Source: Alphaproteobacteria bacterium
Lineage (GTDB): Bacteria; Pseudomonadota; Alphaproteobacteria; Micavibrionales; UBA2020
Reading direction: 5' to 3'
Assembly: GCA_016794125.1 (NCBI GenBank)
Contig: JAEUKT010000003.1
Location: 124,001-188,000 of the forward strand
Length of the DNA: 64,000 nt
The notes beneath the pieces are model-generated. The model was not told the origin of the DNA. It saw only the letters and a list, made by a program, of their open reading frames with translations, and searched no databases. Below are positions 43,473-49,254 of the stretch, piece by piece. Position 1 is the first letter of the stretch. Each line of letters begins with the position of its first letter. The position numbers were made by a program, and so were the translations under genes.

Positions 43473-44447
43473 CTATTTCACGCGATCTGCCAAGGTGCTG
43501 ACGGCCGAAGCGAAATAGGAGGATTTATTCCATTTGAGCAGCGTCCGATAATTTTCATATACCAGAAAAGCTGTTGTCCCCTCGCCGTTGGGCTGGACGA
43601 CCGAAGCCATATATTCGCCCTCGAACGGCACAGGTTTGCCGTTTTCAAGGCGGATGCCCTTGTCATGCCATTGCTGGATGGTTTGTGTGTTATTCACGCC
43701 CAGCAGCGACCGGTCAATGCTGTGCGGCACGGTCACCCTGCGCCCCCAGACCGCGCCCTTTTTCCAGCCGCTTTGCGACAGGTAATTCGCGGCCGAAGCA
43801 AAGACATCGGCCTCCGTCGTCCAGATGTCGCGTTTGCCGTCCTTGTTGAAATCGACGGCGAATTTCAGGAAGCTGGAGGGCATAAACTGGCTCTGCCCCA
43901 TCGCGCCTGCCCATGAGCCCTTCATTTTCGAATGGCTGATATGTTCCGCGTCCAGAATATGCAGCGCCTTGAACAGCTCGCCCCGGAAATAATCGCTGCG
44001 GCGGCCGTCATAGGCCAACGTCGCCAGCGCGTTCACGACATCGAAACCGCCGGTATTCGTGCCATAGCTTGTTTCAATCCCCCACAGGGCGACGATGAAT
44101 TGCTTATCGACCCCATAGGTTTCCTCGACCCTTTGCAGGGTCTTGCGGAAATAGGCCATCTTTGCGCGGCCTTTTTGCACGCGGTCGGGGTTCACGGCCT
44201 TGGCCAGGTATGCGTCAATCGTCACCGTGCCTTCCGGCTGCTTGCGATCAAGCTCCAGGATGCGCGGGATCGGCTGCAGCGTATCGGGCAGTGCGCGGGC
44301 GATGGTATCCGCCGATATCTTTTGGGCGGCGGCCTCCACGCGCAATTCCTTGAGCCATGATTTAAAATCCTGCGTCGCAGCGGACGCAGGCAAAGACGAG
44401 AAGCCGATGGTAAAAGCAGCCAGCGCCGCGCAAATCATGAATCGCAA
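43473..44447 (-). CDS. mltB: Lytic murein transglycosylase B family protein
   Basis: A 324-residue protein with a signal peptide (CAALAAFTIGFSSLPASAAT). The MltB core has FIVALWGIETSYGTNTGGFD with the catalytic Glu, then LATLAYDGRRSDYFRGELFK, SWAGAMGQSQFMPSSFLKFA and DFNKDGKRDIWTTEADVFAS. It cleaves peptidoglycan in the periplasm. It lacks a lipobox and resembles the soluble alphaproteobacterial MltB group. TTG at 44447 is the likely start, since AGGGG lies seven bases before it; ATG 44438 is possible. It joins rlpA and dacA in a cell-wall block. Confidence 0.93.
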   Translation of the reverse strand: MRFMICAALAAFTIGFSSLPASAATQDFKSWLKELRVEAAAQKISADTIARALPDTLQPIPRILELDRKQPEGTVTIDAYLAKAVNPDRVQKGRAKMAYFRKTLQRVEETYGVDKQFIVALWGIETSYGTNTGGFDVVNALATLAYDGRRSDYFRGELFKALHILDAEHISHSKMKGSWAGAMGQSQFMPSSFLKFAVDFNKDGKRDIWTTEADVFASAANYLSQSGWKKGAVWGRRVTVPHSIDRSLLGVNNTQTIQQWHDKGIRLENGKPVPFEGEYMASVVQPNGEGTTAFLVYENYRTLLKWNKSSYFASAVSTLADRVK

Positions 44448-44556: not shown

Positions 44557-44646
44557 GGATGGGTGGCCGAGTGGTTTATGGCTCTAGTCTTGAAAACTAG
44601 CGTGGGCGAAAGTTCACCGTGAGTTCGAATCTCACCCCATCCGCCA
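44557..44646 (+). tRNA. tRNA-Ser (anticodon TGA)
   Basis: A 90-base gene ending in an encoded CCA. The acceptor stem pairs GGATGGG (44557-44563) with CCCATCC (44636-44642), with G as discriminator. The anticodon stem CTAGT/ACTAG closes the loop CTTGAAA, anticodon TGA. A long variable arm and the T arm with TTCGAAT follow, as expected for serine. It reads UCA codons. Its 3' end is copied imperfectly at 48222-48244. Confidence 0.97.
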
Positions 44647-44894
44647 TTCAGTCATGGGTTTGCCCCATGCTGAGAGACACCGCGCACAAATGCGCACGTG
44701 TGGCGCACATTCTCGAAGCCTCTCTTTTTGCCCCCCCCTTGAGAATCCCCAATTCTGCGAGAAAAGCCACGCATTCTCATTGAGGTTGTTTTCGAGTGTG
44801 GCAAATTTCAAAGGATTGCCGTAGAGGCCAGAGCAACAGTATTATACTGCGTTGTGCTTTTATTATCCTTTCATGAACACTTTTGTTTACTCAT

Positions 44895-47345
44895 ATGATC
44901 AACACTCAAGGCCTTTCACAACAAGAAGCTTCTACCCGGTTAAATACCGATGGCCCGAACGAGCTGCCGCGCGAAGGCCACCGGACGCCATGGAAGATTA
45001 TCCGGAGCGTTATCAGCGAACCGATGTTTGCCCTGCTTTTGGCCGCAGGCTCCATCTATCTGGTTTTAGGCGACATACAGGAGTCGCTTGTACTTGTCGG
45101 ATTTGTGACGCTTTCCGTTGGCATTACCGTTATACAGGAATTCCGCAGCGAGCGTGTACTCGACGCCTTACGCGATATGACCAGCCCCCGCGCCCTAGTG
45201 ATACGTGACGGACAGCCAAAGCGCATTGCCGGTCGTGATGTCGTACGCGGAGATCTGCTCATCGTGAATGAAGGCGACCGCGTTCCGGCGGATGCTTTCG
45301 TAATCTCAGGCGATGCCTTGCAGGCGGATGAATCTCTATTGACCGGAGAATCTTTGGCCGTACGCAAGCATCCTGCGCAGGAGCTCCCAGATATTTTTCC
45401 TGCGCCAGGCGGCGAGGATTTACCCTACATTTACGCAGGAACACTGATTGTACGCGGCGGTGGGCGCGCTATCGTCTGCGCCACAGGCCTGCACAGCGAA
45501 ATTGGGAAAATAGGCCAGGCGCTTGCATCGATTGAAATGGAACAGCCACGCCTCAGAATGCAGACGGGACGCATTGTGCGCTTGTTTGCCATAGGCGCTC
45601 TTTTATTCAGTGCTGGCTTGGCCTTGCTCAATGGATTCCTGCATGGCAACTGGTTATCAGCCATTCTGGCTGGGATTGCACTGGGCATGTCGCTTCTGCC
45701 CGAAGAGTTTCCGCTAGTGCTAACGGTATTTATGGTCATGGGCGCATGGCGCATATCGAAAGCAAGAGTTTTGACGCGCAAAGCCGCCGCCATAGAAACC
45801 TTGGGCTCGGCCACCGTGCTTTGTACAGACAAAACAGGGACACTCACGCAAAACAGGATGTCTATTGCAGAGCTTCGCAAGAATACGCCCGATGTCGTAG
45901 AAACCGGAGCCCACGCAAGTCAAAAAGAAAGCCACGATCCAGTTGATCTTGCTTTCCTGACAGCCGCACAACTGCAGAAAAGCCCAGAAAAACTCCGCCA
46001 CTATGGCCTGACGCCAGACTTTCTGGCCATGACGAATATTTATTCGGAGAACGGAAAGTGTTTCGCGGCTGCCAAAGGAGCGCCCGAAACGATCATGCGG
46101 CTTTGCCGGATGGATGGGCAACAGGCAGCAGATATACGCGCCGCCATGGAAGATATGGCCGCACGCGGCATGCGCGTACTCGCTGTGGCAAAATCTGATA
46201 ATATTGCGACGCCATTTCCTGATACGCCTGTGGATCTTTTTTTCCGGTTCTCCGGTCTAGTAGGGCTTGCAGATCCTTTACGCGAGACTGTTCCGGAGGC
46301 CGTGAAAGAAGCACAAAATGCTGGCATTAAAGTTATCATGATCACCGGCGACTACCCGACGACAGCAAAGTCTATAGCCACACAGGCCGGCATTACTGCG
46401 GAAAAAGTAATGACGGGCGCTGATCTGGAAAAGATGACATACGAAGAACTGCGGTCGATCTTGAAGGGCGATTGCATTTTCGCCCGCATCATGCCGCAAC
46501 AAAAACTGCGCATTGTGAATGCCTTAAAGGCGAACGGAGAAATCGTTGCCATGACAGGAGATGGCGTCAATGACGCACCCTCCCTGAAAGCAGCTCATAT
46601 TGGCATTGCCATGGGCGGACGCGGCACTGACGTTGCACGCGAAGCCTCCTCCATTGTCTTACTGGATGACGATTTCAATTCCCTCGTCCGGACAATCCGC
46701 CTCGGCAGACGCATCTACGATAACATCAGAAAGGCCTTTCTTTATATCCTCTCCGTGCACGTTCCCATTATCGGCCTCTCCACGCTGCCAATCCTGTTCA
46801 ACAAGCCTCTTATTCTGACACCGATCCTCATTGCATTCCTCGAAATGGTCATCGATCCCGCATGCTCTGTCGTCCTGGAAGCAGAAGAAGAGGAAGAAAA
46901 TATCATGAAGATCCCACCCCGCGATCCAAACGCATCCATTCTCTCCAGAGAAATTCTTGGTTTAGGGTTTATTCAGGGAATGCTGGCTTTTGTCATGGCC
47001 GGTGGCTTGTGGTTTTATGCTTCAGCCAAAAACTTACCGGAAGACGAAATCAGATCCCTTATATTTGCAACGCTTGTTACCATTAACCTAGCGCTGATTC
47101 TTGCAAACAGGTCGTTCAGCACCTCCCTCGTTTCCGCGTTTAAACGGCCCAATCCGTTCCTGTGGAAAGGTGCTGGGGGTATTCTATGCATCTTTGGTAT
47201 AGCCATGTTCTGGCCCCCGGCGCAGCGCCTTTTCCATTTCGGCCCATTGCATGGCCATGATGTCACCATCGCAATACTGGCGGGAATGACCCTATTGCTC
47301 GTGCTGGAATGGCTGAAATCAATATGGAGAAAACTTAAGTTATAG
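44895..47345 (+). CDS. P-type cation-transporting ATPase (P2-like)
   Basis: An 816-residue membrane pump. The N-terminal cation-ATPase domain is GLSQQEASTRLNTDGPNELP, the actuator motif TGES is at 150-153, and the membrane proline motif is LLPEEFPLVLTVFMVMGAWR. The phosphorylation site is Asp312 in LCTDKTGTLTQNRMS, and the hinge is MTGDGVNDAPSLKAAHIGIA. The PEEFP motif differs from the PEGLP of calcium pumps, and metal-binding cysteines are absent, so calcium or another hard cation is likelier than copper or zinc, but specificity is not known. ATG 44895 is chosen over TTG 44883; no clear ribosome site is seen for either. Confidence 0.88.
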   Translation: MINTQGLSQQEASTRLNTDGPNELPREGHRTPWKIIRSVISEPMFALLLAAGSIYLVLGDIQESLVLVGFVTLSVGITVIQEFRSERVLDALRDMTSPRALVIRDGQPKRIAGRDVVRGDLLIVNEGDRVPADAFVISGDALQADESLLTGESLAVRKHPAQELPDIFPAPGGEDLPYIYAGTLIVRGGGRAIVCATGLHSEIGKIGQALASIEMEQPRLRMQTGRIVRLFAIGALLFSAGLALLNGFLHGNWLSAILAGIALGMSLLPEEFPLVLTVFMVMGAWRISKARVLTRKAAAIETLGSATVLCTDKTGTLTQNRMSIAELRKNTPDVVETGAHASQKESHDPVDLAFLTAAQLQKSPEKLRHYGLTPDFLAMTNIYSENGKCFAAAKGAPETIMRLCRMDGQQAADIRAAMEDMAARGMRVLAVAKSDNIATPFPDTPVDLFFRFSGLVGLADPLRETVPEAVKEAQNAGIKVIMITGDYPTTAKSIATQAGITAEKVMTGADLEKMTYEELRSILKGDCIFARIMPQQKLRIVNALKANGEIVAMTGDGVNDAPSLKAAHIGIAMGGRGTDVAREASSIVLLDDDFNSLVRTIRLGRRIYDNIRKAFLYILSVHVPIIGLSTLPILFNKPLILTPILIAFLEMVIDPACSVVLEAEEEEENIMKIPPRDPNASILSREILGLGFIQGMLAFVMAGGLWFYASAKNLPEDEIRSLIFATLVTINLALILANRSFSTSLVSAFKRPNPFLWKGAGGILCIFGIAMFWPPAQRLFHFGPLHGHDVTIAILAGMTLLLVLEWLKSIWRKLKL

Positions 47346-47457
47346 TAGCCGGCGCAATGCCTACTGGCTGGAGCTATTGCTTGGATAAAGGCTGTTATCA
47401 TGTCTTGCTCCCCTTGGTTTTCTCAAGTACAATTTGCATATAAAACAGGATAGCGTC

Positions 47458-47994
47458 ATGCCCATTATGCAGAAAATTCGCACTTATCATGCTATACTCG
47501 CTGTCTTATCTCTCCTGGCGTATATTACAGGTGAGTTAGGTATCATTCATTCCTGGCTTGGATACGGCGTTGCCATGGTTATTGCGTTCCGCTTGTTATG
47601 GGCATTAAGCGGCAATCCCCATGTTGGGCTAATACGCTTTTATCCTTCCTTTGAGGGACTCAACCTCACCAACATTTTTACACACTCCTCAATTTCTAAA
47701 ATATTTATGCTGGGAATTGCACTCAACCTCATAGCAGCAACAACTACAGGTATTGTCATTGATAAAGGCAGAAGTATTGGGCTTGCCAATACTGAAATAG
47801 TGGCCAATGCCCATGCTGATGATAATGGGCACCACAAAAAAAGTGAAAGCTTCTATGAGGAAGCCTTAGAAGAAGTTCATGAGTTCTTTGCTAATTTCCT
47901 GCTTCTTTTTGTAGGGATGCATGTAAGCTATCTGCTGCTCTTCAAGTTCCCTCTCGCAAAATTCATGTTGTTCCTGAACAAGCCTAGAAAATAG
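47458..47994 (+). CDS. b561-type cytochrome, di-haem membrane protein
   Basis: A 178-residue protein with four hydrophobic helices and histidines placed for two haems: TYHAILAVLSLLAYITG (His10), LGIIHSWLGYGVAMVIAFRL (His31), HEFFANFLLLFVGMHVSYLL (His141 and His155). This fits the cytochrome b561/hydrogenase-type cytochrome b group that moves electrons across the inner membrane. The region before the last helices is His- and Glu-rich (AHADDNGHHKKSESFYEEAL). ATG 47458 is preferred because CAGGA precedes it. It follows the ATPase by 112 bases and shares its AT-rich composition. Confidence 0.8.
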   Translation: MPIMQKIRTYHAILAVLSLLAYITGELGIIHSWLGYGVAMVIAFRLLWALSGNPHVGLIRFYPSFEGLNLTNIFTHSSISKIFMLGIALNLIAATTTGIVIDKGRSIGLANTEIVANAHADDNGHHKKSESFYEEALEEVHEFFANFLLLFVGMHVSYLLLFKFPLAKFMLFLNKPRK

Positions 47995-48315
47995 GAGCGC
48001 AAGGCTTTTGATAGTGATTACCTTGTGGAAGAGTAATGGAAAATTTTCAGACCATAAGACTGCGTGCTTTTTGAAGCAGCCAGGCAGGCAAAACTAACTT
48101 TTCTCAGAGTCTGAGAGCTGATCACGAAAGCATTACAAAAGGCATATATTTGTTATTTTTCAATAGATTGCACCTTTAATTCATAATAGAATGACAAAAG
48201 TTTCGTTTTACTGCTCTTGGTTTCGAATCTCACTCCCACCGCCACCCCTGCCCGACAATCTTCCTAGATAATACCCGCGCCCGCCGTTACACTTGAAACG
48301 GGACAGGAGCTTTCG
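47995..48315. other. AT-rich gap ending in the tRNA 3'-end remnant
   Basis: No protein gene is visible here. The left part is AT-rich. At 48222-48244 it contains the partial tRNA-Ser copy (T-loop side, acceptor strand and CCA) without the rest of a tRNA. After this copy the sequence returns to the GC-rich composition of the core, a sharp switch consistent with an insertion boundary. Confidence 0.6.
48222..48244 (+). repeat. tRNA-Ser 3'-end remnant, possible attachment site
   Basis: TTCGAATCTCAC followed by TCCCACCGCCA. Twelve bases match the tRNA-Ser T arm exactly, then three mismatches occur before the shared CCGCCA. Only the 3' half of a tRNA is present. It could be a right-hand attachment site or the remains of a second serine tRNA. 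Confidence 0.6.
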
Positions 48316-49254
48316 ATGCTGCAATTTTTGACCGCATTTATTTTATGCCTCGCGCTGCAGGTGCCGCCCGCGCAGGCGGAAACACCTGCGGCGGCAGAAA
48401 AAACCGCTCCCGCACCGGACACGAAAAAAAGCCCCACGATCAACCTGTATGTGCCGCCCGAAGCCGCGAAGGCGGAGGAGATTTATGACGGCATCGTCAA
48501 GAACCTGACCAAGGAACAGCAGGACCTGATCAAGGCCTATGAAAGCGACTTCGCGAAGACCGCAGATGTGGAAATGCAGATTGCGTCCACCGCGCTGAAA
48601 CTCAAATACTGCTCCGAACATGATAGCGCGATTGCGAAAAATCCCGGAAAATACACATCAAATTTCAATATCTATCGTAACCAGCTGCAGGCGCAGCAGC
48701 GCGACGAGCGCCTTAAAATTCGCAAGCGGCAGATGGAGGAGATCACGTTTATCGACCAGAAAACGCTCGACGGCCATTTTGATTATACGGCGAACCTTGT
48801 ATTTCAGGTCGGCTTCCAGATCGTGAAAATGAATTACGAGAAGGGTGAATTCAAGAAAACGGATTGTGCCGCCGTTGCGGAAAGCCTGAACGCGGCGGCA
48901 AAACTGGGCAACCCGATCACCGGCACCATCGAAACCGCGCCCGACAAGCTGCAGGAAATCCAGCGGCTGGCCAACAACAACGATCCCGAAGGCATGTTCA
49001 TGCTGGGCATGCTGCAAATCACCGGCAACGGCATGCCGAAAAATGCCGTTTCAGGCCTGAACTGGCTGAAAAAAGCCGCCGATAAAGGTCATGAGCGGGC
49101 GCAGCTGGTGCTGGGCGTCGGCATGACGACCGATATGTTCGGCATTCCGCCCGACCCGCAGGAAGCTCAATTCTGGCTGGAAAAAGCGGCGGCGCAGGGC
49201 AATGCGCAGGCCGAAGCCGCACTCGAAAAACTGAGCAAATCCGGTAAAAAATAG
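48316..49254 (+). CDS. Exported protein with C-terminal Sel1 repeats
   Basis: A 312-residue protein. Residues 1-21 form a signal peptide (LTAFILCLALQVPPAQA). The central 150 residues are helical and charged (KNLTKEQQDLIKAYESDFAK) with no known domain. Two Sel1-like repeats end it: PEGMFMLGMLQITGNGMPKN and ERAQLVLGVGMTTDMFGIPP, then EAQFWLEKAAAQGNAQAEAA. It is likely a periplasmic scaffold. ACAGGAG precedes the ATG. It lies just beyond the putative island boundary and has core-like GC content. Confidence 0.82.
   Translation: MLQFLTAFILCLALQVPPAQAETPAAAEKTAPAPDTKKSPTINLYVPPEAAKAEEIYDGIVKNLTKEQQDLIKAYESDFAKTADVEMQIASTALKLKYCSEHDSAIAKNPGKYTSNFNIYRNQLQAQQRDERLKIRKRQMEEITFIDQKTLDGHFDYTANLVFQVGFQIVKMNYEKGEFKKTDCAAVAESLNAAAKLGNPITGTIETAPDKLQEIQRLANNNDPEGMFMLGMLQITGNGMPKNAVSGLNWLKKAADKGHERAQLVLGVGMTTDMFGIPPDPQEAQFWLEKAAAQGNAQAEAALEKLSKSGKK

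Follow-up and report, generated by a model that had tools for sequence, protein, structure and literature searches.

In additive flexible genomic islands, gene cassettes insert at a tRNA, and their number can be as low as one, as in fGI1 of Alteromonas (PMC4119200), and in fGI-2 of the Methylophilaceae the cassettes are marked by repeats of the last 20 nucleotides of the tRNA (PMC10872708). A pair of attL and attR sites without integration and transfer genes is known as a cis-mobilizable element (CIME) (PMC5704250). tRNA genomic islands in the Islander sense have endpoints marked by a tRNA gene and by a piece of that gene's 3' end (PMC4383910), and tycheposons are quoted in PMC10872708 as 4-200 kb long and as having a tyrosine recombinase (xerD-like), with b561 reported among their cargo. 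Here we describe a segment of 3598 bp, at positions 44647-48244 of a window of 64,000 nucleotides (the whole stretch of DNA that was analysed), which is a clean insertion behind tRNA-Ser(UGA). We think it likely that this segment is a small site-specific mobile cargo element that encodes no integrase, and that its attachment site is made of a copied tRNA-Ser 3' end and an arm-like repeat cluster. The element fits the tRNA-linked cassettes of additive islands and the CIMEs and is thus of a broadly familiar kind.

The genome holding the window (G000; 3.16 Mb in four contigs, with the window at C3:124001-188000) was compared with five congeners (G001, G002, G003, G004 and G005). In G004 (L055) and G003 (L056) the site is empty, with the mltB gene, tRNA-Ser(UGA) and then the Sel1 gene, and the junction lies where it was predicted. 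The uninterrupted junction between the tRNA and the Sel1 gene in both congeners defines 44647-48244 as an insertion with defined ends. The mltB product of G000 shares 99% amino acid identity with that of G004 and 86% with that of G003. At the empty junction of G004, CATCCGCCA is directly followed by CCCCCTGCCC (in a longer reading, CATCCGCCA by CCCCCTGCCCGACAATCTTCC); at the far end of the insert in G000, CCACCGCCA is followed by CCCCTGCCCGACAATCTTCC. The features of the locus are as follows.

44557 to 44646, plus strand: tRNA-Ser(UGA), at which the element integrated; the left crossover region, attL, is the CCGCCA with which the tRNA ends (44641-44646) (ARAGORN; comparison of attL, attR and the empty sites).
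44647 to 48244, no strand: inserted element, 3598 bp, missing from the same site in two congeners (empty sites L055 in G004 and L056 in G003).
44653 to 44669, plus strand: CATGGGTTTGCCCCATG, a short inverted repeat close to the left boundary, on its inner side (read from the sequence).
44682 to 44695, plus strand: GCGCACAAATGCGC, start of a GCGCACA repeat cluster, 35 bp from CCGCCA; a candidate arm-binding site of an integrase (exact matches genome-wide).
44895 (ATG) to 47345 (end of stop codon), plus strand: P-type (E1-E2) cation ATPase of about 816 aa, P2/P3-like, with the motifs TGES, DKTGT and TGDGVND (Pfam, NCBIfam and PDB relatives).
47458 to 47994, plus strand: prokaryotic cytochrome b561, PF01292 (Pfam).
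48222 to 48244, plus strand: attR, the element-borne copy of the tRNA-Ser 3' end, 20/23; the host flank restarts at 48245 (repeat match, empty-site comparison).
43473 to 44447, minus strand: mltB-type transglycosylase, the conserved left host neighbour (Pfam; comparison with G003 and G004).
48316 to 49254, plus strand: Sel1-repeat protein, the conserved right host neighbour (Pfam; adjoins tRNA-Ser(UGA) in G003 and G004).

Transfer RNA genes were called with ARAGORN and domains with Pfam and NCBIfam, and relatives of known structure were taken from the PDB. tRNA-Ser(UGA) is the sole ARAGORN call in the window, and Rfam at gathering strength returned nothing besides tRNA. The last 23 bases of the tRNA (TTCGAATCTCACCCCATCCGCCA, 44624-44646) are repeated at 48222-48244 as TTCGAATCTCACTCCCACCGCCA, with 20 of 23 positions identical. 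When the segment was resampled 300 times with a first-order Markov model, the top match reached 18/23 and most lay at 13-15. A search of the whole of G000 with the 23-mer pattern, allowing up to two mismatches, gave six sites (three tRNA-Ser genes, the copy at 48222-48244 and two repeats of cassettes linked to tRNA-Ser(CGA)), and the reversed pattern, used as a control, gave none. The copy at 48222-48244 is the only one in G000 outside tRNA-Ser genes or these cassette repeats. The initial annotation had outlined a segment at 44624-48244 bounded by this repeat. The repeat and the right end are sustained by our results; the start is moved past the tRNA, to 44647. The intact junction from mltB through tRNA-Ser to the Sel1 gene, for which it had proposed to look in relatives, is present in G004 and G003, and these relatives do not keep the two cargo genes at this place. 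As a side observation, an open reading frame (ORF) of 578 aa lies between mltB and tRNA-Ser(UGA) in G004:C13 (L055:2458-4194) and is found in neither G000 nor G003, so the upstream side of this tRNA is variable as well.

The P-type ATPase and the b561-like cytochrome, which had been recognized between the repeats from the start, were verified with Pfam; they are the only genes of the segment, both ORFs are intact, and the noncoding ends measure about 248 and 227 bp. The ATPase has the Pfam domains E1-E2_ATPase, Cation_ATPase_N, Cation_ATPase_C and Hydrolase. Its relatives are Ca2+ pumps of the PMR1 type and LMCA1, as well as plasma-membrane H+ pumps, and it scores under the cut-off of all specific (equivalog) NCBIfam models. 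As had also been claimed, the segment is richer in A+T than its surroundings and the core composition is restored past the second copy: the G+C content is 49.4%, compared to 56.1% in the window, and it drops to 40% at the right end and is back at 54% right after the second repeat copy. The G+C content at third codon positions is 0.55 in the ATPase gene and 0.44 in the b561 gene, compared to 0.63-0.76 in the neighbours. When the suggested check of composition and codon bias was run, both cargo genes were atypical, having the most deviant codon usage, and also the lowest third-position G+C, among the 12 genes compared. The segment 44647-48244 is foreign DNA.

The left part of the element is also found behind another tRNA. 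G004 is a metagenome-assembled genome (MAG) fragmented into 380 contigs, and on its contig C261 (L057) the sequence from the left end of the element into the ATPase gene, where the contig stops, lies directly behind tRNA-Ser(GGA), with 92.8% nucleotide identity over 1830 bp. The empty tRNA-Ser(UGA) site of this genome is on a different contig. This left half, of at least 1.8 kb, is integrase-free as far as it is visible. The tRNA positions up to CCGCCA are of the host type at both sites (CCCCATCCGCCA at UGA and TCCTCTCCGCCA at GGA); the tails read CTCACCCCATCCGCCA (UGA, G000) and CTCATCCTCTCCGCCA (GGA, G004), and each is then followed by TTCAGTCATGGG. Because both tails are of the host type, strand exchange is placed within the common CCGCCA, the last six bases of the tRNA. 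The host-type proximal ends also mean that the distal TTCGAATCTCACTCCCACCGCCA belongs to the element, as its tRNA-like attachment half, and is no displaced host fragment. The copies in G000 and G004 are 99-100% identical over about 900 bp (44757-45656) and abruptly 72-89% identical in the distal ATPase gene, while the flanking core DNA is about 89% identical. The 99-100% tract suggests a recent exchange, or else a chimera in the MAG.

The 14-mer GCGCACAWATGCGC has two exact matches in G000, one at 44682 in the element and one at C2:1154028 (minus strand) behind tRNA-Ser(GGA), and both lie exactly 35 bp after the CCGCCA of a tRNA-Ser. One copy with the same 35-bp offset is present in G004, and no exact match was found in G001, G002, G003 or G005. 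On sequence grounds, we infer that GCGCACAWATGCGC is a candidate arm-binding site of an integrase. The motif locus at tRNA-Ser(GGA) in G000 holds other cargo, without a Pfam match, and its left end has a different short inverted repeat at about the position of CATGGGTTTGCCCCATG. When viral contigs were searched for CCGCCA, 30-40 nt and GCGCACAWATGCGC in this order, the one match lay in a phage structural gene without a tRNA and was set aside as due to chance.

These features lead us to infer that the element may be mobilised in trans by a tyrosine integrase. In the circular form, TTCGAATCTCACTCCCACCGCCA would be joined to TTCAGTC. An integrase encoded elsewhere would bind the GCGCACA arm cluster and recombine CCGCCA with the CCGCCA at the 3' end of tRNA-Ser, by which the tRNA would stay undamaged, and the host would benefit from the pump and the redox cargo. 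An action in trans gains support from the same genus, in which a 23-bp motif is common to integrase modules at other tRNAs and to the cassettes without integrase at tRNA-Ser(CGA). Several points weigh against the proposal of a site-specific element moved in this way. No excision was observed, and in G000 and its five congeners no integrase locus adjoining the GCGCACA motif was found. A P4-type integrase at tRNA-Ser(GGA) in G003 was considered as the helper but is not supported, because the repeats differ (GGCGAA) and the integrase loci fetched from G000 contained no close homologue of it. Outside the 14-mer, the two left ends in G000 are dissimilar, and no right end is recognisable for the G000 locus at tRNA-Ser(GGA), the best match being 14-15/23. 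In addition, the right end of the G004 copy lies beyond the end of contig C261, and its identical tract is possibly chimeric.

Alternatively, the segment could be the decayed remnant of a larger integrative and conjugative element (ICE), integrative and mobilizable element (IME) or prophage at tRNA-Ser(UGA), which lost its own integrase by an internal deletion and left attL, attR and two cargo genes; it would then be a CIME in origin. The presence of attL and attR without recombinase or transfer genes agrees with this, and in congeners, tRNA-Ser genes are occupied by elements that encode an integrase themselves (tRNA-Ser(GGA) in G003 and tRNA-Ser(UGA) in G002). Decay to CIMEs has been described as a common route (PMC5704250). 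However, while no recombinase, transposase or transfer genes were found among the reading frames of the element (ORF list, Pfam), its noncoding ends hold no integrase remnant either, the cargo is intact, and the left half at the other tRNA in G004 is integrase-free too, its right half lying beyond the contig end. We regard such a decay as rather unlikely. Of the initial interpretation, the integration of an element at a tRNA is upheld by the empty sites, and the decay with loss of an integrase is not; an integrase-less cargo element moved in trans is better supported.

It is also conceivable, with a low probability, that the insertion at tRNA-Ser(UGA) is real and that the second site in G004 arose from chimerism of a metagenome contig, in which case there would be no evidence of movement between tRNAs. 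The fragmentation of this MAG, the end of C261 within the ATPase gene and the tract of 900 bp that is 99-100% identical to G000, despite a difference of about 10% between the species, would agree with a chimera. However, the junction lies in a species-specific stretch, with 8% of the positions differing in 44657-44756, and the upstream flank of tRNA-Ser(GGA) differs from that of G000 by about 10%. Besides, the tRNA-Ser(UGA) site of G004 is cleanly empty on another contig, and the two tRNA genes share at the join only 17 bp and the TCCGCCA end.

It is very improbable that the segment was moved by ordinary homologous recombination, whether between the core genes that flank it or between tRNA paralogues. 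Homologous exchange may have occurred, given the 99-100% tract in an otherwise diverged ATPase gene, but at each of two different tRNA genes the boundary coincides exactly with the 3' terminus, and the tRNA-like half at the far end is element-borne. An exchange through the flanks would bring core genes with it and would not lead from one tRNA gene to another. Hardly any credence can be given to the idea, raised in the initial annotation, that a separate tRNA-Ser gene, broken and lying nearby, accounts for the second copy: the copy is tRNA-Ser-like from the T-loop to CCA, but no tRNA sequence precedes it (TTGGT and CTCAC are unpaired), the empty sites of G003 and G004 hold a single tRNA and no second fragment, and the matching acceptor strand TCCCACC occurs in no tRNA-Ser seen in these genomes.

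As a site-specific cargo element without an integrase, the segment resembles the additive islands (Alteromonas fGI1, PMC4119200; Methylophilaceae fGI-2, PMC10872708) in its conserved tRNA target, the tRNA repeat of about 20 nt at the boundary, the size of a single cassette and the ion-transport cargo, and in being present in some and absent from other close relatives whose flanks are intact (occupied in G000, empty in G003 and G004). In contrast to them, there is a single cassette here, a sister species has its left part at a second isoacceptor too, the crossover is narrowed to CCGCCA, and the motif GCGCACAWATGCGC is shared between ends. Like a CIME (PMC5704250), the element keeps attL and attR and is without integrase or conjugation genes; unlike one, it is adjoined by no ICE or IME, and its integrase-free left half occurs at two tRNA genes. 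Compared to the islands in the Islander sense (PMC4383910), its ends are likewise a tRNA gene and a 3'-end fragment, but it has no integrase, the tRNA tail is host-derived and the fragment is element-borne, so that the tRNA is not regenerated from island sequence. Tycheposons, as PMC10872708 describes them, similarly have a tRNA at the border and a nutrient or redox cargo with b561, whereas the present element lacks a tyrosine recombinase and, at 3.6 kb, is below 4 kb. P4-type integrase elements at tRNA 3' ends, as in G003, use the same class of target and join at the tRNA 3' end, but they have their own protein with Arm-DNA-bind_3 and Phage_integrase domains beside the attachment site; the element has none and the repeats differ. 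In G003:C298 (L303:1-1393), the P4-type integrase (Arm-DNA-bind_3, Phage_int_M, Phage_integrase) lies beside the tRNA-Ser(GGA)-like end CATCCTCTCCGCCA.

Diverged tyrosine integrases of about 411-452 aa are flanked in the genus by a truncated 5' half of a tRNA on one side and a complete class-II tRNA, Ser or Leu, on the other (G002 L058:2284-3866 and L283:3497-5259; G000 L276:5801-8830; G003 L302; G006 L065). In G002 they are at tRNA-Ser UGA and CGA, the former between a truncated and a complete tRNA-Ser(UGA); G000 has two in tandem at tRNA-Leu(CAA), and those in G003 and G006 are partial. Tandem cargo cassettes follow tRNA-Ser(CGA) in G000:C4:294883-311667 (L082, L286) and G002:C6:93169-131618 (L283-L285). 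They are separated by conserved repeats that extend from the anticodon arm to CCA, and a PF00589 search found no integrase in the cassettes of either genome. Several cassettes are stacked at this tRNA in G000 and G002, compared to none or one at tRNA-Ser(UGA) in G000, G003 and G004. The 23-bp sequence TTACACAnnTnTTACACACTTTT, with up to three mismatches, occurs at 10 distinct places in the 1.97 Mb of fetched DNA, six of them just ahead of genes for integrases of about 411-452 aa and four at left ends of cassettes or near tRNA-Ser(CGA); its reversed control had no match in the same DNA. Judged from these motifs, the finding supports putative trans-acting integrases for integrase-less tRNA cassettes in the genus, in a set distinct from the element at 44647-48244.

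The first tRNA-Ser(CGA) cassette of G000 (C4:301331-311399, L082) holds arsR, an arsenate-reductase-like gene, arsD, arsA, b561, a norZ-type nitric oxide reductase, a metallo-beta-lactamase (MBL)-fold protein and a heavy-metal P-type ATPase; these names come from reading translations, and only b561 was checked with Pfam. No closer relative of the window element's b561 was found than the b561 of this cassette (72% amino acid identity, 128/178). Among 66 genome contigs with relatives of the ATPase (45-94% amino acid identity), a comparable tRNA linkage was seen only on G004's own contig, and no adjacent homologue of the element's b561 was found beyond one distant match of 25%. Viral contigs gave no ATPase relatives, and in plasmids only the ATPase gene family was found (about 65-73% nucleotide identity in the best matches), not the element.

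We tentatively suggest that a split, integron-like mobility system might operate on class-II tRNA genes in this genus, although we would not yet bet on it. In such a system, stand-alone integrases in the 5' side of tRNA-Ser and tRNA-Leu genes would recognise arm sites shared with integrase-less cassettes behind other tRNAs and move them in trans, and the element at 44647-48244 would belong to a parallel set with a 3'-terminal CCGCCA crossover and a GCGCACAWATGCGC arm.

The locus provides a clean natural element with a cargo of two genes, in which both ends are mapped, empty sites are available, the left part is found at a second tRNA and no recombinase is encoded. The supply of an integrase in trans thereby becomes directly testable for tRNA-linked islands. 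Surveys that demand an integrase gene would miss such islands. The locus also shows that insertions in this alphaproteobacterial genus have a common hot spot in the tRNA-Ser genes.

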